Shown here: one piece after another, positions 1-20,722 of the stretch | How positions within the stretch are numbered: position 1 is the stretch's first letter | Layout of the letters: the number at the start of each line of letters is the position of its first letter | Virus record (IMG/VR): IMGVR_UViG_3300023174_000743 | Location: 1 to 20,722 of that record | DNA from: a virus | DNA length: 20,722 bases | Reading direction: 5' to 3' (one strand) | Position numbers and translations under genes: made by a program | The notes under the pieces: model-generated | The model's database searches: none | What the model saw: the letters and a program-made list of their open reading frames with translations, nothing else | What the model was told of the DNA's origin: nothing

Positions 1-932
1 TTCAATTAGCAAATAACAATACAACAGACGCAGTTGATATTGGTTTCTTTGGACAATACAATCAGGGCGTATCAAACGTTCACTCTGGATTGTATCGTGA
101 CTCATCCGATGATACATGGAAGTTGTTTAGAGGCTATAACATTGAACCACAGACAAAGATTTTTACATCGAATAATGGATTCGCATGGGCAAACTTGTCG
201 ATTGGTGCGCTTACAGCCGCAAACAGTATTAACATTGGAACGGGGCAAACATATAAGATCAATGGCGTTGACATTTTAAGCGCAACAACATTAGGGTCTT
301 CAGTCGTTAACACATCAATCACATCAACTGGTACAATTACTTCAGGCACATGGTCTGGTTCTTTTGGTGCAGTTAGCGGTGCAAACTTAACTTCATTAAA
401 CGCAAACAACATTGCAACAGGAACAGTAGCGCCAGCAAGACTTGCTTCAGGCACAGCAGACGCTACGACATTCTTACGTGGTGACAGTACTTGGGCTTCT
501 GCGGCTGTTTCAATTACAAATAACATTGCAACAGATGCAACATTCTATCCAATATTCACTAGCGTGACAACAGGATCAATTGTTGGTGCAAATACATCAT
601 CTACAAAATTAACGTTCAATCCAAGTTCTGGATTATTAACGTCAACTGATTACAATTCATCTTCTGATGTAACACTAAAAGAAAACTTTACGGAGATTGT
701 AAATCCATTAGACATTATATCTCAGCTTGATGGCTTTGGATTTAGTTGGAAAGATACAAAAGAAAAATCTTATGGGCTGTCAGCGCAACAAGTTGAAACA
801 GTACTTCCTGAAATCGTTAGGGTTCGTCCTGACGGCACAAAGGGTATTAATTATTTGAATTTGATTGCCTTTTTGGTAGAAGGAATTAAAGATTTAAAAG
901 AAGAAGTTCGCCAACTTAAGTCTTATAAATAA
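1..932 (+). CDS. Tail fibre protein with C-terminal S74 (endosialidase-type) chaperone domain, 5' partial
   Basis: The frame is open from base 3 of the window with no start in view, so this is the C-terminal part (about 309 codons) of a longer fibre. A TTG at 90 is in frame but is not needed as a start. The visible middle is the Gly/Ser/Thr/Ala-rich beta repeat sequence usual in phage fibres, including GTADATTFLRGDSTW. The last ~90 residues match the peptidase S74 chaperone family: SSSDVTLKEN, then FGFSWKD, YGLSAQQVE, INYLNLIAFLVEGIKDLK and a short terminal coiled coil. Family members trimerise the fibre and then cut themselves off before the Ser of the Ser-Asp dyad; here that would be Ser at 663-665 and Asp at 666-668. 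It is the first of three adjacent fibre-like genes. Family assignment is firm. Receptor and host are unknown. Confidence 0.9.
   Translation, partial: QLANNNTTDAVDIGFFGQYNQGVSNVHSGLYRDSSDDTWKLFRGYNIEPQTKIFTSNNGFAWANLSIGALTAANSINIGTGQTYKINGVDILSATTLGSSVVNTSITSTGTITSGTWSGSFGAVSGANLTSLNANNIATGTVAPARLASGTADATTFLRGDSTWASAAVSITNNIATDATFYPIFTSVTTGSIVGANTSSTKLTFNPSSGLLTSTDYNSSSDVTLKENFTEIVNPLDIISQLDGFGFSWKDTKEKSYGLSAQQVETVLPEIVRVRPDGTKGINYLNLIAFLVEGIKDLKEEVRQLKSYK
924..931 (+). promoter_or_regulatory. T4-type late promoter box TATAAATA
   Basis: Exact TATAAATA, 26 bp before the ATG at 958. It overlaps the TAA stop (930-932) of the preceding fibre gene. T4 late promoters use TATAAATA at about -10, and cyanophage late promoters use NATAAATA. 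The position before a structural gene supports function, but the start of transcription is not shown. Confidence 0.7.
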
Positions 933-957: not shown

Positions 958-1647
958 ATGGCAATTAAAGTCGGTAGTTGTACAGTCATTGATGACACAA
1001 GAAATCTAGCAAATGTATGTTCGATTTCATTAGTGTCTGGCGGGCAAGGAACAACAGGACAAGTTTTAAAATCTCAAGGCACAGGACAACCTTCAACTTG
1101 GGGTGCAGTTGATGCTATTACCAATTATGCATATGAGAGTCGTGGCAGTTTAAGGGGCACAACTCCAACAGATGGCTCACAAGCGTATGTGGGTGGATTA
1201 GGATATTTTGTATTTGAATTATCATCAACAGAACCAGATGACGATGAGACTGCATTTCGGACAGCGACAGGCGCATGGATTCTTTCTGCGCCTACATGGG
1301 ACTTTACTAAAACATACACAGAATTCGAAAGAGTAGGCAGAAACTATACAGTATTAGTTGACAATACTATAGGTTCAGTTCAGGGATGTCCAGTATGTAT
1401 GAATGCGAACATTCCTGGTGCATCAGCGGGAGATTTTTATCAAGTACAAGCATATTGCGGATGTCCATATTTTGGAGAAGTTCGTGCTAGATACAATGAA
1501 GCAACAGGATGCGTACTAATTATTGGATCAGTTCCATGCATATGTTCATCAATCTCTGTATCTTGTGGATACGGATATGTCTGTGTTTGCAATATTGGCA
1601 ATTTCACTTGCGTATGCAAATGGAATGTATATGTCCAAAAAGTATAA
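958..1647 (+). CDS. Tail fibre-like protein with cysteine-rich C-terminus
   Basis: 229 aa, with an AAAGGA ribosome site 5-6 nt before the ATG. The N-terminal third carries the common fibre motif GGQGTTGQVLKSQGTGQPSTWG (only its general G-x-x-G-Q-V-L pattern is diagnostic). A middle segment at about residues 75-120 (YFVFELSSTEPDDDETAF, then GAWIL) resembles small beta domains of phage tailspikes. From about residue 142 onward the composition changes: 12 of the protein's 14 cysteines lie in the last ~88 residues, many as C-x-C pairs (GCPVC, YCGCP, CIC, CVC). It sits between the S74 fibre and the giant Cys-rich protein and shares the latter's bias, so the two may act together in one distal fibre structure. 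No enzymatic motif was seen. The role as an accessory fibre or adhesin is inferred from context. Confidence 0.7.
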   Translation: MAIKVGSCTVIDDTRNLANVCSISLVSGGQGTTGQVLKSQGTGQPSTWGAVDAITNYAYESRGSLRGTTPTDGSQAYVGGLGYFVFELSSTEPDDDETAFRTATGAWILSAPTWDFTKTYTEFERVGRNYTVLVDNTIGSVQGCPVCMNANIPGASAGDFYQVQAYCGCPYFGEVRARYNEATGCVLIIGSVPCICSSISVSCGYGYVCVCNIGNFTCVCKWNVYVQKV

Positions 1648-1683: not shown

Positions 1684-4600
1684 ATGCCATTAGTGCGAGG
1701 AATTAGATTACTAAACTCACTTGAAACAGGAAACGTTTCGGGTGCATGTTTAGAAACAATAGTAACATGTCCTGCAAGAGCCGCTGATTTTGTCAGCATC
1801 TTGCAGTCTCCGGGATTCGCCTGTTTAGCCGCATCTTCAAACACATCGACATTCGCTGTAACACGTTCGAATACTGCATTAAATACATTAGCACAAACAA
1901 CAGTTGGTGCATGTATTTACTATTCAACACCTGCGTTTGCTAATAACTTTGCACAATCTGGTGCCGCATTTGATAACTTACTCACAAGTAACGATACACT
2001 CAAACACTTTTCAAATTCTGCTTTAACAATGTCCTGTGCATTTGCAACAGGATCAACATTTTTAACTTGTGCGGCCGCATCAAACACAAACTTGGCAAGA
2101 ATGTTTACTTGTCCAATTACGGCATGTTGTATTTTTGCAAGTTCTGCGGCTATGGCTAGTTTAGCCGGAAATGCAAACATTGTATCTTATCTGTTTAATG
2201 ATACTACTGCGGCCGCATGTTTCAGTGCATATGGTGGTGCAACAGCAGTATGTAATGCATTTGGTGGAACTGCATACATTGATTACATATTACAGGCTGG
2301 CAAAACTTGTGCGGCTTTTGCTTGTTCTGCTATCGGACCATATGCATTTACAAATGCACTTTCTGCAAATTGTTTCATTAAAAATGCATGTGCGCTTTGC
2401 GTTCTTGTTAACTTGCCAGCATGTTGTGCGCTAGGAACAAGTTGTACATTCACTTGTTTTGCCGCATCAACTTATGGCATTCCTTGTGCAACAACAGAAT
2501 ATCTTGCAGGAAATACATCATTCATTACTCAAATATTCTCATTAAATTCTTGCGCTCAATTAGGTGCTTTAGTTTATAACAATTCGTTCATCTCTTGCTA
2601 TTATAAGTCAACAACACCATTCAGTAACAAATTTAATTGTTTCTGGAATAATCAAGACAATACAACATGTGGTGGAAGATATTGCTGTCCAGAAGCATCA
2701 GCATCTCCTTGGAATTCTTCTTGGTGCTATGGAACTGTCGGTTCTACATTTGGTGTAAGAACTCCGTGCATGGAATGTTTTATGACAGCACAGGAATCAG
2801 CTTATTACTACAATGCATATGTTAATTTATCTGGTGCTCTGTCTTCATCAAATAACGGCAACTTTATGATGCTTGGTGGTGGATATCAATTGCAAGGGCA
2901 AGGTACAATCCCAATGTGTGCATGTTGTGATGGTGTTAATTATTGTAACACAATTAATGGTGCGCCAGATCATACAACGGCAAAAACATCAGGATTCTTC
3001 GTGTGCTGTCCTGCAATGTTATATTCAAACACTAATGGATGTACTTGGTTCAGATTACCTGGATTCTGTATTCCAAATACTGCATTCACATCTTTATGTT
3101 GTGATGGCTTCAGCTATAATGCATGTACTGCTGGCCAGTGCGGTAAAGTTGAAATTCAATGGGGTTTAGGATCATTCACATGTGAATGTGGAATCTGGAC
3201 TGGATTTAGAATTAGCAATCTTTGCTGTAAGAGTCATGCTGTTTTTGGTTATGCATGTACTTGTGTGTTAGCTAATAACACACCTGGCGCTTGGACAGTA
3301 TGTGTGGGTAAACCACATCCATTTGCGCTATTGACTTTCTGCTGTGGATTCTTCTCAGGTATTGGTGGAGATTGCATAACAACCAACTTTAGTGTCACTT
3401 CGCCATATTCAGGCCTGGCTGGATGCTATACTAATGCACCATCGACTTGTTGTTATTATGGATATATGCTTCCAAGATACATCATAGGTAAAATTACAGG
3501 CGGAACAGATTCTTGTGCATTTCAAATAAATTCTTGTTCAGCATGTTGCTGTAACTGTACTTCATGCTATAACATTTGTAACTGGATATGTGGAACTTGT
3601 TTCTGTAATGGTTGCTTATCTAGAGATTGTGAAAGACCTATTGACAATCCATTCTGTTACATGTTTGATAGATTTGCTTGTTGTTCCATATACAAATCAT
3701 ATAATCCAACAATGAATTTTATGACATGTGTTTGGGGATGCACAACAAACATAAGATCATGGCTATGGCAACTTGCAGTAGGTGAAACTGTTCAGGCATA
3801 CTATGGAGAGAATGTTACAACGCATAGTACATGTACTGTTTTAGAGTGGAATGCCGGATCACCCAGAAAATGTGATTTAACTGGTGGTGCCAATCAATTA
3901 CTTCAGATAGGTTGTGCGCCACTTGGCGGTGCAGTTCCTATAGGAAATACTATTTTATTTCTTAGCACGCCATATGTAGAATCTCCAGATAAAAGTTCTT
4001 ATAACTTCTATTCATTTAGTGCGGCTTGTGGCGCTTGTTGCGAATTGTCATCAATTTGTAATAATTTCACTTGGGGCTCAAGCATTACTTGTCCAGATTC
4101 ATATTGTAGCTCCGGTACAGGCGTTAGAGATTTTAACTGCGTTTGCAACGGTTATTATGTAGATTTTAACAATCCTGCATGTAATAATGCTGTTAGACTA
4201 GGATTTACTAGTAGAATAAGTTGTGCAAATACTTTTGTTAGTATTATACCGTGTTTTGGTAGTTGCGGTACCTACGGAGCAAGTACTAGATTTAATTATC
4301 CAAATCAAGCATTATGTGCCCAAGAAATTTATGGATGTAAAACATGTATGTCTACTGCTTATCCAAGTTGCCCTGAAAAATGTTTTGATTATTGTAACAT
4401 AGGATGGCATACATACAACTGTGGTGGCGGTGGTAGTCCGTTTACATGTGGTAGTACCCCAAGGGGTGGTATTACGTGCGGCATCCAACAGGGTTGTTTT
4501 GGAAGTTTTCCTGGACAAGTTTTGTTCGCATTTTGCGATTCATTCATGTTCACACAAGGCATGTGTGGCGGAGTATGTTGTATTCGTTTAACTGGTTGGC

Positions 4601-4959
4601 CTTGTCCACTAGTTTATAGTGGTGGCTGTTGTTGGAATTGGGGTTCTAGTCCTTGTACTCCTTGTACTAGTTCAGGACATTCGAGATGTTTATTTTATCT
4701 TGGATGCTGTCCTAGTGCGGGTAGATGTGGATATTCAGGAGCATCTTATGGATGGATGGAAACCTGCCCACAGGCTAGTTTCTCAGTCATATGTGCATTT
4801 GCGTGTGCGTATGCAGGTAGAAATCCATGTCTTGTTTGTACTGCAAATGGTATGCCAAGTGTGACAGTTGGTCAGATCATGTGTGGTAGCGGATTCTATG
4901 CAAATGGACAAGTGTACACCACATGTGCATTTAAACTAAGATTTGTGGACATGTTCTAA
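1684..4959 (+). CDS. Giant cysteine-rich tail fibre/adhesin-like protein
   Basis: 1091 aa, with a late promoter box 33 bp upstream and an AGGGG ribosome site before the ATG. By hand count it has about 118 cysteines (near 11 %), against about 4 in the 629-aa sheath in the same window. Residues 1 to about 300 show degenerate Ala/Ser/Asn/Thr repeats of the SNTALNTLA kind known from phage fibre shafts. The remainder is rich in Gly, Tyr, Trp, Asn and Cys, with many CC and C-x-C pairs and a peak at about residues 609-650 that includes ACCCNC. No signal peptide, membrane span or catalytic motif was seen. It is followed by a tail-fibre assembly gene, which supports a distal fibre or receptor-binding role. 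Disulfide cross-linking or metal binding would be possible uses of the cysteines; neither is shown. The reading frame is clearly real, but no named family was recognised for the Cys-rich body. Confidence 0.8.
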   Translation: MPLVRGIRLLNSLETGNVSGACLETIVTCPARAADFVSILQSPGFACLAASSNTSTFAVTRSNTALNTLAQTTVGACIYYSTPAFANNFAQSGAAFDNLLTSNDTLKHFSNSALTMSCAFATGSTFLTCAAASNTNLARMFTCPITACCIFASSAAMASLAGNANIVSYLFNDTTAAACFSAYGGATAVCNAFGGTAYIDYILQAGKTCAAFACSAIGPYAFTNALSANCFIKNACALCVLVNLPACCALGTSCTFTCFAASTYGIPCATTEYLAGNTSFITQIFSLNSCAQLGALVYNNSFISCYYKSTTPFSNKFNCFWNNQDNTTCGGRYCCPEASASPWNSSWCYGTVGSTFGVRTPCMECFMTAQESAYYYNAYVNLSGALSSSNNGNFMMLGGGYQLQGQGTIPMCACCDGVNYCNTINGAPDHTTAKTSGFFVCCPAMLYSNTNGCTWFRLPGFCIPNTAFTSLCCDGFSYNACTAGQCGKVEIQWGLGSFTCECGIWTGFRISNLCCKSHAVFGYACTCVLANNTPGAWTVCVGKPHPFALLTFCCGFFSGIGGDCITTNFSVTSPYSGLAGCYTNAPSTCCYYGYMLPRYIIGKITGGTDSCAFQINSCSACCCNCTSCYNICNWICGTCFCNGCLSRDCERPIDNPFCYMFDRFACCSIYKSYNPTMNFMTCVWGCTTNIRSWLWQLAVGETVQAYYGENVTTHSTCTVLEWNAGSPRKCDLTGGANQLLQIGCAPLGGAVPIGNTILFLSTPYVESPDKSSYNFYSFSAACGACCELSSICNNFTWGSSITCPDSYCSSGTGVRDFNCVCNGYYVDFNNPACNNAVRLGFTSRISCANTFVSIIPCFGSCGTYGASTRFNYPNQALCAQEIYGCKTCMSTAYPSCPEKCFDYCNIGWHTYNCGGGGSPFTCGSTPRGGITCGIQQGCFGSFPGQVLFAFCDSFMFTQGMCGGVCCIRLTGWPCPLVYSGGCCWNWGSSPCTPCTSSGHSRCLFYLGCCPSAGRCGYSGASYGWMETCPQASFSVICAFACAYAGRNPCLVCTANGMPSVTVGQIMCGSGFYANGQVYTTCAFKLRFVDMF

Positions 4960-4977: not shown

Positions 4978-5409
4978 ATGAAACTTGTCATATCGAATAA
5001 CCGTGTAGTTGCAACTTTAAAGGATGAATATATAGGACCACATGAGTGGATCCTACCTCCATCCGACTTTGATGAGTCTAGAGCATTAGAATATACTGTA
5101 GATGATGCGGGTAATTTTAGTTTACCTGCATCTCCTACAGTATTGGAAGTTCTAGAGCAAGCTGTCCAAAAAAGATTAGATGATTTTGCTAAAACTAAAA
5201 AGTATAGCGATATCGGAAATGCGACAACATATATAAGTTCATCAGTAACAAAATATAAGAATGAGGGTACATATGCATCTACTGCTAGAGATAGCACATG
5301 GATTGCATTTTACCAAATCATCAATGATGCAAATGATGGTAAGAGACAACAAATCAAAGAATTTTCTGAGATTGAGTCTGAATTACCAACACTTACTTGG
5401 CCAACATAA
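4978..5409 (+). CDS. Tail fibre assembly protein, DUF4376-like
   Basis: 143 aa. The C-terminal ~80 residues follow the pattern of the DUF4376-type domain found in phage tail-fibre assembly proteins: a VQKRLDDFAKTKKY helix, an YISSSV-KYKNEGTYASTARDSTWIAFYQI segment (Ala-Arg-Asp then Trp), and the ending PTLTWP. The N-terminal part, with NNRVVATLKDEY and WILPPSDFDE, is like the small beta module that precedes the domain. It lies 18 bp after the Cys-rich fibre gene, with only a weak A-rich ribosome site and no late box, so it is probably co-transcribed. By analogy with tail-fibre chaperones it may help fold, or cap, the fibre encoded just upstream. The family match is from memory of the pattern; the partnership is inferred from adjacency. 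Confidence 0.75.
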   Translation: MKLVISNNRVVATLKDEYIGPHEWILPPSDFDESRALEYTVDDAGNFSLPASPTVLEVLEQAVQKRLDDFAKTKKYSDIGNATTYISSSVTKYKNEGTYASTARDSTWIAFYQIINDANDGKRQQIKEFSEIESELPTLTWPT

Positions 5410-5501: not shown

Positions 5502-6440
5502 ATGAAAAAAATAATTTATATTGACGGTGGTGCCGGAAGAGCGATTGCGGCACTACCAGCACTTGAAAAATTAGTTAAAAACAAAAGACCTGAAGATGAC
5601 ATAAAAATTATTGTCATGGGTTGGGACAATTTATATTGGGGCAATCAACTGCTTCAAGACATTACATTTAGCGCAGATACAAAAGGTATCTTTGATCTAG
5701 TCTTAAAAGACGCAGACAAATACATCAGTCCAGAACCATACAAACTTCCAGAGTACTATAATCAAAAAGTATCTCTAGCCGAAGCGTTCGACATTGAAAT
5801 CAATGGCACACATGACCATTCTGATTTACCTCCACTCAAGTTATACACTAGCAAAGCAGAAGAAAAGAATGCGGCTAATTTACTTGCAGACGTAAAGATG
5901 CAACAGAAAAAAGACAAAACGCTTATCATTCAACCCTATGGTAGAAGTGCAAGAGTTGATCGTGCTGACATTATCGATGATTCTTCTAGAGGTCTTGATT
6001 CACATGCATACTTGCGTTTAGTCAGAAAACTCTCAACAAAGTATAATCTTATTTTGTTTGCAGAAAAACCATTTCACCAGCCAGATGATAACTTCACATT
6101 CAAGCCTGAGATGGATTTGAGAATGTGGTCTGCTGTCATTGAAGCGGCTGATTATTTTGTTGGATGTGATTCTGTTGGTCAGCACATGGCAAGAGCATTT
6201 GAAAAGCCAGGAACTGTTTTCATTGGATCGACATTTGCAAAGAACGTATCTTATCCTGAGTGGTTTAATATTTACGAAAGACAAGGAATTGAAAAGAAAT
6301 ATTCTCCAATTCGTATTTCGGGATTAGACTCACATCTAGCGGATAGATATAATGACAAGTGCATGGACTTGTCCGATAAAGACGTAGACGAATTGTTTAT
6401 GTCAATTGTTAAAGATATAGAAAAAAAGGTAGGAAAATAA
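5502..6440 (+). CDS. Glycosyltransferase family 9-like (ADP-heptose:LPS heptosyltransferase-like)
   Basis: 312 aa. The N-terminal GGAGRAIAALPALEKL (residues 9-24) matches the Gly-rich loop and helix that open GT9 heptosyltransferases. The C-terminal half has the family's donor-site signature, ADYFVGCDSVGQHMARAF then GTVFIGST (about residues 217-244), corresponding to the usual D-S-G/V-x-x-H-x-A pattern. GT9 enzymes transfer heptose from an ADP-activated donor to lipopolysaccharide core or protein. The gene is first in an early operon, 1 bp ahead of the carbamoyltransferase. The AAAGGA ribosome site (5484-5489) lies 12 nt before this ATG and only 2 nt before another ATG that opens a two-codon frame (ATG AAA TAA, 5492-5500). 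The nearby HldD-like epimerase fits an ADP-heptose donor. The acceptor is unknown. Confidence 0.8.
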   Translation: MKKIIYIDGGAGRAIAALPALEKLVKNKRPEDDIKIIVMGWDNLYWGNQLLQDITFSADTKGIFDLVLKDADKYISPEPYKLPEYYNQKVSLAEAFDIEINGTHDHSDLPPLKLYTSKAEEKNAANLLADVKMQQKKDKTLIIQPYGRSARVDRADIIDDSSRGLDSHAYLRLVRKLSTKYNLILFAEKPFHQPDDNFTFKPEMDLRMWSAVIEAADYFVGCDSVGQHMARAFEKPGTVFIGSTFAKNVSYPEWFNIYERQGIEKKYSPIRISGLDSHLADRYNDKCMDLSDKDVDELFMSIVKDIEKKVGK

Positions 6441-6441
6441 T

Positions 6442-8250
6442 ATGAGTTATAATATTTTAGGTATCAATCCTGGTCATAATGGTTCTGCGGCTTTAGTTGC
6501 AGATGGTGAAGTTGTGTACTATGTTGAAGAAGAAAGATTGAGCCGTTCTAAGTATGATGGTAATCCATTCAGAGGCATGTTAGACATTATCAACAAATGG
6601 GAAATTCATGAATTGATTATTGCTGGCACTGGACAAGAAGAACATAAACTTCCTTGGACAGGTGAAGATGCATATACTGCACTTGTTCGCAAGTTCTATC
6701 CTAAAGTAAAAGTTACTAAACTTGGGCATGAACATCATTTGGGACATGCCGCATCTGCATTTTATAATTCTGGTTTTGACAAAGCAATTGCAATTATTGT
6801 AGATGGTGCTGGTTCTTTGAAACAAGAAAAGCTAGATGAAGAAGGTAAAAATATTGCAGAAGGATATGAGACAGAATCAATTTGGGTGTGTGAATATCCA
6901 ACTAAATTCTCGCCAATGCTTAAAGTATATGGTAGCAATGCTGGAAACAAAGTACGTTCCAATATTTTTGACTTTGATGGTGGTGCAACAACTATCACAA
7001 AAACATATGAAGCAGTATCTCAGTACTTAGGATTTGGTTTCATTGAAGCTGGTAAGACTATGGGACTTGCACCATATGGAAAGAAAGATGATTCTATTCC
7101 AAATTTATTCAATGGTAATAGAGGGTCTAAGGATGTGTTTTTGCCAATGTATCCAGCTGGAGCATTCATCGATGAAGCAAGATTTCCTCAACTCGCAAGA
7201 ACCCGTGATCCTAAAGAATGGCATAATGATCCCGAAAAATTAACTGACATTGAAAAGAATCTTGCATGGCAAATTCAGCAAGATACACAAAAACTTGTTG
7301 GTGATTACATTGAAGGTGCAGTTGCCGCACTCAAAGATGAAATTCAGAATATTGTTATTGCAGGTGGTTATGGTTTGAATTGCGTTGCAAACTATTACTT
7401 CAAGAAACGTTTTCCACATCTAAACATTTACGTTGAACCTATTGCACATGATGCAGGAACGTCAATTGGTGTTGCTAAACTTGCGTGGCACAATAATCCT
7501 GATAACAAAAATTTTAGAAGTAGTCCGCAAAAAAGCATTTACTATGGACCAGAGTATTCAACAGAAGTACTTGAAGATATTTTAACTCAAGTGAAAGCTG
7601 AAAATTTTATTGAAGTGACTCCTACTACAAAAGAAGAAATCGCACAATTGATTGCTGACAGAAACATTGTTTCAATCTTTCAAGGCCGCTCAGAAGCTGG
7701 TCCTCGTGCATTGGGTAATCGTTCTATTCTTTATGATGCAAGAGACCCTGAGGGTAAAGACAAGGTTAACATTGTCAAAGGCAGGGAATGGTTTAGACCA
7801 TTTGCAGGGTCTTGTTTGCTAGAAGATGCAAACGATTGGTTTGACATGGCTGGACTTGAAGAGTCTCCATTTATGATGTATGCAGTTAATGTTGCGGCAG
7901 ACAAAGTAAGTGAGATTCCTTGTGTTACACACGTTGATGATACATGTCGTGTACAAACTGTATCTGAAGAGAATAACAAGCATTTCTATGAATTGATTAA
8001 AGCATATAAAGACATTACTGGTGTTCCAGTTATATTTAACACTTCATTCAATCTTGCTGGTGAGCCTTTAGTTGAAACACTACAAGATGCTTTAGGCACA
8101 CTATTCCGATCTAAATTGAAATATTTGTATCTTCCTGAGTTGAATGTTTTAGTTAAAAAATTAATTGCTGATCCTAATTCAACCGAAACAAAAAAACTTA
8201 TAGTTGAAGTTCCAGAAACAGTTTTAGAAACATCAAAAACTGAAGAGTAA
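6442..8250 (+). CDS. Carbamoyltransferase, NodU/CmcH/TobZ family
   Basis: 602 aa, full length for the family. The N-terminal ASKHA-type domain begins MSYNILGINPGHNGSAAL and carries VEEERLSR. HEHHLGHAAS (about residues 96-105) gives the histidines that bind metal in TobZ-type enzymes, and VDGAG follows at 120-124. The C-terminal YrdC-like/transfer region has GRSEAGPRALGNRSIL (415-430), EWFRPFAGS near residue 450, and FNTSFNLAGEP near 535. These enzymes use carbamoyl phosphate and ATP to O-carbamoylate sugars or small molecules. The gene starts 1 bp after the GT9 gene and ends directly at a terminator, so the pair forms one operon. A reasonable inference is carbamoylation of a glycan made or attached by the neighbouring sugar enzymes. 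A nucleobase or other small-molecule target is not excluded. Confidence 0.93.
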   Translation: MSYNILGINPGHNGSAALVADGEVVYYVEEERLSRSKYDGNPFRGMLDIINKWEIHELIIAGTGQEEHKLPWTGEDAYTALVRKFYPKVKVTKLGHEHHLGHAASAFYNSGFDKAIAIIVDGAGSLKQEKLDEEGKNIAEGYETESIWVCEYPTKFSPMLKVYGSNAGNKVRSNIFDFDGGATTITKTYEAVSQYLGFGFIEAGKTMGLAPYGKKDDSIPNLFNGNRGSKDVFLPMYPAGAFIDEARFPQLARTRDPKEWHNDPEKLTDIEKNLAWQIQQDTQKLVGDYIEGAVAALKDEIQNIVIAGGYGLNCVANYYFKKRFPHLNIYVEPIAHDAGTSIGVAKLAWHNNPDNKNFRSSPQKSIYYGPEYSTEVLEDILTQVKAENFIEVTPTTKEEIAQLIADRNIVSIFQGRSEAGPRALGNRSILYDARDPEGKDKVNIVKGREWFRPFAGSCLLEDANDWFDMAGLEESPFMMYAVNVAADKVSEIPCVTHVDDTCRVQTVSEENNKHFYELIKAYKDITGVPVIFNTSFNLAGEPLVETLQDALGTLFRSKLKYLYLPELNVLVKKLIADPNSTETKKLIVEVPETVLETSKTEE

Positions 8251-8276
8251 AAAAAAGCACCGAAAGGTGCTTTTTT
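8251..8276. terminator. Bidirectional Rho-independent terminator
   Basis: AAAAAAGCACC, GAAA loop, GGTGCTTTTTT: a perfect 11-bp stem with a tetraloop and A/T runs on both sides. The rightward stop codon (8248-8250) abuts it on the left, and the leftward stop (8278-8280) is 1 bp away on the right, so one element serves both converging operons. Confidence 0.93.
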
Positions 8277-8277
8277 G

Positions 8278-9003
8278 TTATGGGAGAGAATTTGCAAAAT
8301 CTAATAGAGATTCAAATGTTTTTGTTTTATTCTTTAATTCTTTATTTGCAAATGTGTCTAGTTTAGTCTCTGCATCTTGATAACCTGGAGATTTAATTAG
8401 AATGGGTTTTGCGTGTACAGAGTCACCAGCTTTTAGATTGTATAACTTGTTACCTGCAAAGTAACCACCTTTGAATGCGACTTTCATTTCATTCTCTGCA
8501 CGTTTCATCATGCCATTATTTGGCATTGCAAATAAATCTTCTTTCATGTTAGATGTTGAATATAACAATCCATCAATCGTAAAGATTCCAGCTTGCCCAA
8601 AATAATTCATTAACTGTTGAACATTAGAATCTACCGCTTGAGTAGTTAACTTGCCTTGGCTGATTAAAGGCTCATTGAAGAATATAACAAGTTTATATCC
8701 TTTTAAACGAATTGTACGAATTGCATCTAACGCACCAGGAAGCATTTCAATATCAGATGCGCTAAGAATTGGTTTAGAATCATTTAAAAACACACCTCTG
8801 TCCATACCAATCGTTTCTTTAGGGAAGAAGGTTGGCCAACCTGCGGGTGATTGAGGCTGTTGCATCATGCCTTGCTGTTGAGGCGGTTGTTGTCCGTATG
8901 GCGAACTATAATTTGGTGTTCCATACTGTTGCGGCTGTGGCATAGTAGGTAATGGTGGTTGTCCACCAACGTTCATGCTTCTGTCTATTGAAAATCTTCC
9001 CAT
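8278..9003 (-). CDS. HAD-like protein related to GmhB heptose-bisphosphate phosphatase, apparently catalytically dead
   Basis: 241 aa; the GGAG ribosome site supports this start. Residues 1 to about 55 are a Pro/Gln/Gly/Met-rich low-complexity extension. From about residue 64 the order follows GmhB-type HAD phosphatases: GMDRGVFLND (66-75), DIEMLPGALDAI (84-95), GYKLVIFFNEP (102-112), NNGMMKRAE (162-170), and GGYFAGNKLYNL (179-190). Compared with the family FLDRDGVIN, V-T-N-Q, R-K-P and V-G-D-x-x-x-D motifs, the general-acid Asp appears to be Gly70, the motif II Thr is Phe109, the motif III Lys is Met160, and both motif IV acids are Asn (185, 189). Only the nucleophile position, Asp68, is kept. 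The protein probably cannot dephosphorylate. It may be a sugar-phosphate binding, regulatory or structural derivative. It is last in the leftward operon behind the epimerase. The alignment is by eye. Confidence 0.7.
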   Translation of the reverse strand: MGRFSIDRSMNVGGQPPLPTMPQPQQYGTPNYSSPYGQQPPQQQGMMQQPQSPAGWPTFFPKETIGMDRGVFLNDSKPILSASDIEMLPGALDAIRTIRLKGYKLVIFFNEPLISQGKLTTQAVDSNVQQLMNYFGQAGIFTIDGLLYSTSNMKEDLFAMPNNGMMKRAENEMKVAFKGGYFAGNKLYNLKAGDSVHAKPILIKSPGYQDAETKLDTFANKELKNKTKTFESLLDFANSLP

Positions 9004-9012
9004 TATTAACTC

Positions 9013-9930
9013 CTATGCAATTTGATAATATTCATTTATACTTCTGAATTTTGTTTGAATTCCGACTTCTCTCAACTTAGTTAAATCTGCACAAGTCCAA
9101 TGCTGATACTTATCTCCATACTCTTTGGGGAAAGGTATAACTTCAATTCTAGCATTCTCTCTGTGTGCAATAATTTCTGCGACCCTAGCAAAAGATTCTG
9201 CATGACCAGTGCCTATGTTAAAAATACCGCTACTCATTTTATTGAATGCTAAATCTAACTTTGCTTGAACAACATCATCGACACACACAAAGTCTCTAAA
9301 CATGCTTTCTGAACCAGAAAAGATTCTTATCTTTCCAGTTTCTCTTGCTTGCTTAGTAAACTTAGTAATTGGACTTGCTTGGTCGCCTTTGTGCAATTCA
9401 TTGTTGCCATATACGTTAAAGTATCTAAGTCCCTGAATATTAAATTCATATTTGTCAAAGTATTCCGATGTTATTAGTTTAGTTATTTTTTTATCAAACA
9501 AATATTTAGTGAATGCATATGGCGTCTGAGGTTGCATCGGCGCATCTTCTAGTACAGCATAATTATGAGGTATCTGTCCATAAACACTTGCGCTAGATGC
9601 ATATTGTAATGGTATCTTATGCTCAAATGCTTTTTGTAAAATTTTACATGAAAAATCAAAGTTTCTTTTCATCAATAAAGTTCCATTCAGTTCTCTAGTA
9701 GAAGAAATTGCACCTTCATGGAAAATAAACTTGACACTATCCCAATCAGAAAATGTATCAAAAAATGAATCAGCATCATAATAGGTGCTAAACGTTGTGC
9801 CGTTTAGATTCATCATTTTATTGCCGTCAGCCAAATCATCGACAACTACGATTTCTGTGATGCCTCTTGCGTTTAATGATTTGATTAAGTTTGAACCTAT
9901 AAATCCAAATCCTCCGGTGACAAGTATCAT
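9013..9930 (-). CDS. hldD: ADP-L-glycero-D-manno-heptose 6-epimerase-like NAD(P)-dependent epimerase
   Basis: 305 aa, near the bacterial HldD length of about 310. It is a short-chain dehydrogenase/epimerase with the Rossmann motif TGGFGFIGSN at residues 5-14 and acidic VVVDDLADG at 28-36. HldD-specific stretches follow: FIFHEGAISST (69-78), YASSASVYG (110-118), the catalytic Tyr138-x-x-x-Lys142 in TPYAFTK, GLRYFNVYG, HKGDQASP, FRDFV-VDDV, GIFNIGTGHAESF and IPFPKEY. HldD interconverts ADP-D-glycero- and ADP-L-glycero-manno-heptose, the donor for lipopolysaccharide heptosyltransferases. It is the middle gene of the leftward early operon; its ATG overlaps the cupin stop by 1 bp (TAATG). With the GT9 gene across the terminator it points to a phage heptose pathway. 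Active-site residues look intact. A related nucleotide-sugar substrate cannot be excluded. Confidence 0.88.
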   Translation of the reverse strand: MILVTGGFGFIGSNLIKSLNARGITEIVVVDDLADGNKMMNLNGTTFSTYYDADSFFDTFSDWDSVKFIFHEGAISSTRELNGTLLMKRNFDFSCKILQKAFEHKIPLQYASSASVYGQIPHNYAVLEDAPMQPQTPYAFTKYLFDKKITKLITSEYFDKYEFNIQGLRYFNVYGNNELHKGDQASPITKFTKQARETGKIRIFSGSESMFRDFVCVDDVVQAKLDLAFNKMSSGIFNIGTGHAESFARVAEIIAHRENARIEVIPFPKEYGDKYQHWTCADLTKLREVGIQTKFRSINEYYQIA

Positions 9931-10310
9931 TATTGTCCCTTGTTCTGCTGACTGTCTCCAGGCAGAACACGATAATTGTCTTGAACACTATCTGGTGTGG
10001 AAACTTCTATGATTGTGCCTTCTTCTAGGCAAATAACTTGATGTGGTTGTAGAGGACGATTGCGCCAAACTTCTCCAGCTTTTAACGTTACGTCATGTAT
10101 ACTTGCGTCTTTAGTCTCGATAAATTTAATCATAAATAAACCATCTAACACATACCAAGATTCATCTTTTTCAGCATGAAAGTGCATACTGAATTTTGCG
10201 CCTTTGTTGAACTTCATCAGTTTGCCGCAATACTTATCGTTGGTAGCCCAAATTAATTCATGTCCCCAACCTTTTTTCACAAAACCTTCTAGTCTTTCCA
10301 TATTATTCAC
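9930..10310 (-). CDS. Single-domain cupin, sugar-phosphate isomerase-like
   Basis: 126 aa, with a GAGGTG ribosome site 6 nt before the ATG and a sigma70 promoter just upstream. Cupin motif 1 is present as G-x5-H-x-H-x4-E-x6-G, in GAKFSMHFHAEKDESWYV and the following LDG. Motif 2 is GEVWRNRPLQPHQV with the conserved Pro and His. The opening KKGWGHELIWATNDKYCGK resembles type II mannose-6-phosphate isomerase and WbuC-like cupins that act on nucleotide-sugar or sugar-phosphate substrates. The metal ligands (two His and one Glu of motif 1, one His of motif 2) are visible. It is first in the operon with the heptose epimerase, so isomerisation or epimerisation of a heptose or mannose intermediate is plausible. 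The exact substrate cannot be read from the sequence. Confidence 0.8.
   Translation of the reverse strand: MNNMERLEGFVKKGWGHELIWATNDKYCGKLMKFNKGAKFSMHFHAEKDESWYVLDGLFMIKFIETKDASIHDVTLKAGEVWRNRPLQPHQVICLEEGTIIEVSTPDSVQDNYRVLPGDSQQNKGQ
10131..10138 (+). promoter_or_regulatory. Possible late promoter box CATAAATA inside the cupin gene, antisense
   Basis: CATAAATA on the rightward strand within the leftward cupin gene, 278 bp before gene 13. If used late, it would run antisense through the start of the cupin gene and across its promoter. A single AT-rich octamer inside a coding region may be chance. Confidence 0.25.
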
Positions 10311-19694: not shown

Positions 19695-20722
19695 TAATGC
19701 TTTAAACGATGCTGTCGCAATTGCAACGTCTGTTGCATATACTAAAAAAGAAATACAGAAATTAAAATCTTTTTTAGAAGAAAAAACAAAACAGCCAATC
19801 GTTGAGTACATACAAGGACCGGCAGGCACACAAGGCTTGCGAGGTCCTATTGGTGCTACAGGCGCACAAGGCGAACGTGGACCGCAAGGTTTACCTGGCG
19901 AGATGGGACCACAAGGGTCAAAAGGTGAAGTTGGTCCACAAGGTAATATGGGACTTGAAGGTCCACGTGGACTGAAAGGTGACAAGGGAGACAAAGGCGA
20001 CACTGGCGCTATCGGACCACAAGGCGAACAAGGCATACAAGGTATTGCTGGTGAGCGTGGCGAGAAAGGCGAGAAAGGCGATAGGGGTGCAGATGGACAA
20101 AATGGTCTGGACGGAAGAGATGGACAAGATGGCGCAACTGGTCCTGTTGGACCAGCGGGAGTACAGGGTCTTCAAGGCGAACGAGGTCCTAAAGGAGACA
20201 AAGGCGATAGAGGACAAGACGGAAGAGATGGACCTCAAGGACCAGCAGGACCCGCAGGTGAAATCGGACCGCAAGGCGTTCAAGGTCTTCCAGGTAAGGA
20301 TGGTAAAGACGCAGACATAAAAGCAATTGAACAATCTATCAATCAATTTAAAGAAGTTTTACAGAAAGATGTAACTCAGTACAAAGCAAAAGTAAATACG
20401 ATTCTATCGGATCGTGGTGGTGGTTCACATGGTGGTGGTGAAGTCAATCTACGTAGACTTGATGATGTTGACACAACTAATCTTATTGATGGATATGTTT
20501 TATCATTTAATGAAACTACACAAAAATTTGAATTTGTAGCACAGTCTGGTGGCGGTGGTGGTACAGTAGATAATATCGCTAGAACAAGAGCGACCAATGC
20601 ATGGAATACTGCAAACTCAGCATACACTCAAGCCAACAGCGCATATACACAATCTAACAATGCATATGTTCAAGCTAATACAGCAACCACACTAGCGCAA
20701 GCCGCATACAATCAAGCCAATA
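19675..20722 (+). CDS. Collagen-like tail fibre protein, 3' partial, GTG start
   Basis: At least 349 codons, running off the window. The frame has a TAG at 19657, then GTG at 19675 with GAAGAGG six bases before it. There is no in-frame ATG until deep inside the collagen region, so GTG is the likely start; it overlaps the gene 20 end by 20 bp. Residues 1-47 are helical and polar (AVAIATSVAYTKKEIQKLKS). Residues 48-212 are 55 uninterrupted Gly-X-Y triplets rich in GPQ, GEK, GDK, GDR and GRDG, a collagen-like triple helix. Then come a helix, a Gly-rich link, and the fibre motif LRRLDDVDTTNLIDGYVLSF, then TQKFEFVA. The visible end is an Ala/Asn/Gln repeat (AYTQANSAYTQ). It is probably a trimeric virion fibre, either a neck/whisker-like or a tail fibre; which one is unknown. 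Confidence 0.88.
   Translation, partial: MTKKENNNALNDAVAIATSVAYTKKEIQKLKSFLEEKTKQPIVEYIQGPAGTQGLRGPIGATGAQGERGPQGLPGEMGPQGSKGEVGPQGNMGLEGPRGLKGDKGDKGDTGAIGPQGEQGIQGIAGERGEKGEKGDRGADGQNGLDGRDGQDGATGPVGPAGVQGLQGERGPKGDKGDRGQDGRDGPQGPAGPAGEIGPQGVQGLPGKDGKDADIKAIEQSINQFKEVLQKDVTQYKAKVNTILSDRGGGSHGGGEVNLRRLDDVDTTNLIDGYVLSFNETTQKFEFVAQSGGGGGTVDNIARTRATNAWNTANSAYTQANSAYTQSNNAYVQANTATTLAQAAYNQAN
19816..20310 (+). repeat. Collagen-type Gly-X-Y repeat, 55 triplets
   Basis: A glycine codon falls at every third codon across 165 codons without a break. Third-base use at Gly varies (GGA, GGC, GGT), so the repeat is kept at the protein level rather than being a recent DNA expansion. Local GC is clearly above that of the flanking sequence. 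Confidence 0.95.

Follow-up and report, generated by a model that had tools for sequence, protein, structure and literature searches.

The stretch of viral DNA analysed here (the window; 20,722 nt, positions 1 to 20,722 of IMG/VR record IMGVR_UViG_3300023174_000743) carries a fibre block in which one gene, on the plus strand at 1684-4959, is open over 1091 codons and encodes 118 Cys residues, or 10.8% of the protein (93 TGT and 25 TGC codons). The enrichment runs along the whole protein, and the densest 50-residue bin, at residues 601-650 (3484-3633), contains 13 Cys. The gene is preceded by a T4-type late promoter motif, TATAAATA, at 1643-1650, 34 nt upstream, with AAAGGGGAAAACC-ATG at the start. 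Directly upstream lies a partner fibre gene (958-1647, plus strand) with its own copy of TATAAATA at 924-931; its 229-residue product contains 14 Cys (6.1%), mostly in the C-terminal half, while its ordinary homologues lack them. The other 16 genes of the window that we tabulated, leaving out this partner, have 0-1.6% Cys (0.64% in the sheath, with tube, portal and terminase also normal), so that chance composition is excluded. Downstream, at 4978-5409 (plus strand), is a small gene for a Cys-free protein of 143 residues that is DUF4376/tail-fibre-assembly-like and probably a fibre chaperone. At 90-932 (plus strand) is the C-terminal part of a fibre or baseplate-wedge protein with a Peptidase_S74 self-cleaving chaperone (PF13884, E 2.7e-12; phrog_8215, E 3e-40). 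Beside the fibre block, at 5502-10310, are a GT9-like protein, a carbamoyltransferase-like protein and, on the minus strand, a sugar epimerase-like and cupin-like set, possibly involved in surface sugar modification; ORFs of the same sizes recur in the Cys-rich contigs described below. A collagen-like G-x-y repeat protein (GPQGLPGEMGPQG...) at 19702-20722 (plus strand) runs off the end of the contig.

The observation made in the initial annotation, that a real late gene of a fibre block encodes about 118 Cys in 1091 residues, is confirmed, as is the position of the densest stretch. Three corrections are needed, however. The Cys enrichment of the preceding gene had been overlooked. The following gene had been called DUF4376-like, but Pfam does not call it DUF4376 by itself; rather, its first 51 residues are homologous (BLASTP E 1e-11) to a protein of a related contig, L043, which does score as DUF4376 (PF14301, 4.9e-12) and matches phrog_1807, a tail fiber protein. 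Finally, clusters of CC and CxC had been described, but CxC is below expectation after local shuffling (7 observed, 13.7 expected) and CxxC is at expectation (12 observed, 13.5 expected). Although CC pairs and the dense stretch at residues 601-650 could be read as clusters that bind Zn or Fe-S and stabilise the fibre, the absence of CxxC enrichment, the rarity of His (7 in 1091 residues, 0.6%) and the lack of any metal-site domain in searches of Pfam and PHROGs speak against metal sites, and we consider a metal-binding protein very unlikely.

Relatives of the Cys-rich protein

Direct searches with the window protein found nothing in PDB, Pfam, PHROGs, INPHARED phages or IMG/VR, a PDB profile search gave one unconvincing hit to a type II antifreeze protein (E 0.066), and a search of the genome collection with conserved peptides returned no Cys-rich homologue. 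The protein is nevertheless not an orphan. Searching with the partner gene led to uncultivated viral contigs with the same gene order, and a scan with their alignment added one more; together these carry six long homologues of 1373-1397 residues with 9.8-10.6% Cys (L002, L003, L005, L006, L007 and L040). A DNA pattern for the shared start, with its Cys at residue 22, found an uncultivated viral contig (L053, completed as L061) encoding a homologue of 1138 residues with 9.5% Cys that is 55% identical over the full length. A 607-residue protein with 11% Cys (L011), also on an uncultivated viral contig, shares the N-terminus (E about 2e-11). The window protein and the long group are 23-29% identical, with clear homology over residues 1-560 (E down to 1e-53) and a conserved C-terminal end at residues 1051-1091 (4834-4956; GSGFYANG...CAFKLRFVDMF), which aligns with the long homologues and L061. 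The motif TATAAATA also stands before the Cys genes of six relatives, and a CATAAATA variant stands before that of L061. Neither the window protein nor its long homologues matched a Pfam or PHROG profile. The full-length and long homologues, the high synonymous exchange with Cys kept, the conserved promoter and gene order, and the normal Cys content of the other genes exclude a frameshifted, recoded or chance ORF, for which we found no support. We likewise dropped the ideas of recoding and of a diversity-generating retroelement, because Cys content is normal elsewhere in the window and the enrichment extends along the whole protein.

The N-terminus places the protein in a larger and ordinary fibre family. 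A DNA pattern for the start MPxxRxxRxxN found contigs whose proteins begin MPMVRAMRLLNAIEAG (the MP(M/V)VRxxRLxNA family) and have 0-0.9% Cys, some of them in Tepidimonas and Rhodoferax bins. Profile comparison (hhalign) joins residues 1-92 (1684-1959) of the Cys-rich group to the low-Cys family with probability 97.6 and E 3.5e-12. A homologue of the partner gene (the A6 family) is present in 15 of 15 of these contigs, which were found by N-terminal motif alone and include that of L011, and it lies directly upstream of the fibre gene in those that were read. A small assembly-type gene (MKLIIQNNR...; MKLIIQNNRIAGTATD...) follows downstream in many, one copy of which matches DUF4376 and tail-fibre PHROGs, as described above for L043. 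The window therefore holds a known kind of three-gene fibre module. In L011, however, the partner homologue (3345-3677 of that contig) is reduced to 110 residues without Cys, although the fibre beside it has 11% Cys, and thus shared enrichment of the partner is not general. A tree of the N-terminus needs only one change for the Cys-rich state, with modest support (75/74); a single origin is not excluded and not proven.

The bodies of the low-Cys proteins, which do not align with that of the window protein, are STAMxAVAxS repeats or Asp-box blades (STNNGVTW). The low-Cys L036 matches phrog_7809, a tail fiber protein (E 3.8e-15). An AlphaFold model of the low-Cys L045 shows helical repeats over residues 1-108 and four-stranded blades beyond, well predicted to about residue 320 (pLDDT 80-90 over about 170-320), and this predicted beta-propeller body has fold matches to Kelch, sortilin and GH74 propellers in PDB and to phage BNR and tail-fibre proteins in BFVD. 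The Cys-rich L011 keeps Asp-box blades (three motifs against 0.05 expected; blade iE 2e-6 and 3e-5 without bias correction). In contrast, the blade profile gave no hit in the window protein, and its single Asp-box-like motif, SNTNGCTW at residues 448-455 (3025-3048), is not significant alone (1 found against 0.12 expected, p about 0.12). The AlphaFold model of the window protein has helices at the N-terminus, as does that of L045, but is worthless beyond it (mean pLDDT 28.6), and no Cys pair was seen in space.

Origin and conservation of the cysteines

Ser and Thr together make up about 27% of the Asp-box low-Cys relatives L037, L045 and L050, but 18.6% of the window protein, so Cys rose largely at their expense. 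In L011, the same turn of three Asp-boxes carries a Cys (NCGASW, NCGATW and NCGVTW). To determine whether Cys are kept, we did not rely on raw conservation in the variable region (0.70), because pairwise alignment of non-homologous reversed sequences gives a Cys identity of 0.62 there through alignment bias. We counted instead only ungapped columns, binned by the identity of their neighbours with Cys left out. Within the long group, Cys identity was 0.84 against 0.61 for other residues at 50-70% flank identity, and 0.89 against 0.75 at 70-90%, while between the window pair and the long group, the two diverged clades, it was 0.48 against about 0.24. In matched blocks Cys is conserved at or above the level of Gly, Pro and aromatic residues. 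Cys was kept at 684 of 917 sites, and at 214 of these TGT and TGC had been exchanged. Individual Cys positions are therefore under purifying selection, and a second fraction floats. Of the two outcomes named beforehand as refuting the initial interpretation, an unconserved scatter of Cys and a match to a characterised Cys-rich fibre family, neither was found.

These data do not show which Cys, if any, are paired. Cys are not lost in sequence-near pairs, and near differences tended instead to compensate, with 17 of 48 near pairs changing in the same direction against about 24 expected over seven sequence pairs that are not independent, and 5 complementary columns within 30 residues against 2.2 expected (p 0.06). 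Columns 108 and 118 of the alignment (about residues 108-118 of the long homologues) are exactly complementary across six sequences, either position having Cys but never both. This would fit a partner Cys that accepts either mate, but it is not significant. Three of the nine complete homologues have an odd number of Cys (145, 137 and 67), so that at least one free or inter-chain Cys exists in those, and the Cys-free partner of L011 indicates that cross-linking to the partner is not a general explanation. A search for thioredoxin-family genes on the related contigs, which are partial, was negative.

It is conceivable that the thiols are mostly free, with Cys serving as a small, weakly polar, well-packing residue in place of Ser, Thr or Ala in a repetitive beta scaffold. 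Cys is replaced by, and replaces, Asn, Ser, Thr, Ala and Gly, Ser and Thr are depleted where Cys rises, nearby Cys are not lost together, and assembly takes place in a reducing cytoplasm. On the other hand, free exposed thiols in oxic water would oxidise, Cys is more conserved than expected of an exchangeable small residue, and Cys-to-Ser is not the dominant exchange. We regard this alternative as unlikely, although it cannot be excluded.

Interpretation of the fibre module

We suggest, with only modest confidence, that the gene encodes the distal receptor-binding part of a tail fibre of a T4-like contractile phage, made late from a TATAAATA promoter together with its fibre partner and a small chaperone-type protein. 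In this view, the N-terminal 92 or so residues form the helical-repeat domain common to the family, which presumably attaches the protein to its partner, and the long body is a chain of beta-rich receptor-binding domains in which, in this branch, much of the Ser/Thr-rich surface and core of an ordinary scaffold has been replaced by Cys. The protein would most likely fold reduced in the cytoplasm and oxidise after lysis into a densely disulfide-stapled, rigid and degradation-resistant adhesin. The gene, its late promoter motif, the module, the homology of the N-terminus and selection on Cys are demonstrated by our analysis, while the position at the tip, the propeller nature of this body and the disulfides are inferred from sequence and precedent. 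The initial interpretation is partly supported: a fibre adhesin remains the best reading and post-lysis cross-linking has a direct precedent, but metal binding, offered as the alternative, is not supported. The statement that no named family could be recognised holds for the Cys-rich body, whereas the N-terminus and gene order place the protein in the widespread three-gene module, which had not been noticed.

A redox-active adhesin, in which exposed Cys form mixed disulfides with, or are reduced by, thiols of the host surface so that attachment is covalent or the fibre changes shape on contact, is possible but unlikely. The extreme Cys density at the presumed receptor-facing part would be consistent with it, and in phage Milano disulfides must be reduced before contraction, with a host-surface reductant among the authors' suggestions. 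However, nothing in the sequence singles out exposed catalytic Cys, CxxC is at chance level, and the most conserved Cys blocks look structural. An extended form of this idea, also unlikely, is a redox-maturing adhesin that is synthesised reduced and flexible, is locked by dozens of disulfides on release, and exchanges thiols with the host surface on attachment, so that redox chemistry acts as a switch for assembly and adsorption and a hypervariable body is held by a conserved Cys frame.

Phage tail fibres are trimmed by selection on the host surface, and Cys is normally rare in them. A whole branch with 10-11% Cys, under selection, next to relatives with almost none, gives a natural comparison of what dense Cys does for an adhesin. 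The window protein is conserved, unrecorded in the libraries searched, and the most Cys-dense large phage virion-type protein that we know of. If the disulfides are real, it would be by far the densest disulfide protein known to us in a tailed phage, made without a secretory pathway, and would offer a scaffold in which a fixed Cys frame carries a fast-changing surface. The terminase and sheath are at most about 50% and 45% identical, respectively, to those of Methylophilales, Synechococcus, Pelagibacter and Ochrobactrum phages, and that the contigs are aquatic is our reading of the virus group alone.

Comparison with other systems places these features in context. The low-Cys fibre family (IMG/VR contigs, and Tepidimonas and Rhodoferax MAGs) shares the homologous N-terminus, a partner-gene homologue and often a similar assembly-type gene downstream, but has 0-0.9% Cys against 10.8% here, and different bodies. 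Asp-box (BNR) beta-propeller fibres, such as the BNR repeat protein of Synechococcus phage S-CBWM1 (a BFVD hit), have the predicted fold of the low-Cys relative L045 and, by motif, of the Cys-rich relative L011, although the window protein itself shows no significant Asp-box repeats. Giardia variant-specific surface proteins are also large surface proteins with roughly a tenth Cys, but they are built on CxxC motifs and made in a secretory pathway, whereas CxxC is not enriched here and no homology was seen. The closest precedent for the proposed disulfides is Agrobacterium phage Milano and its relative 7-7-1 (PMC10811340, PMC10491603, PMC12796354), in which structural proteins with 2.1-2.6% Cys (2.1-2.4% in Milano) form disulfide networks although they are made in bacterial cytoplasm, and Milano loses its mechanical and thermal robustness in DTT. 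The enrichment in Milano is modest and spread over capsid, neck, sheath and baseplate, with mainly inter-subunit bonds, whereas in the window it is confined to two adjacent fibre genes, one of which, at about 11% Cys, is about five times denser.
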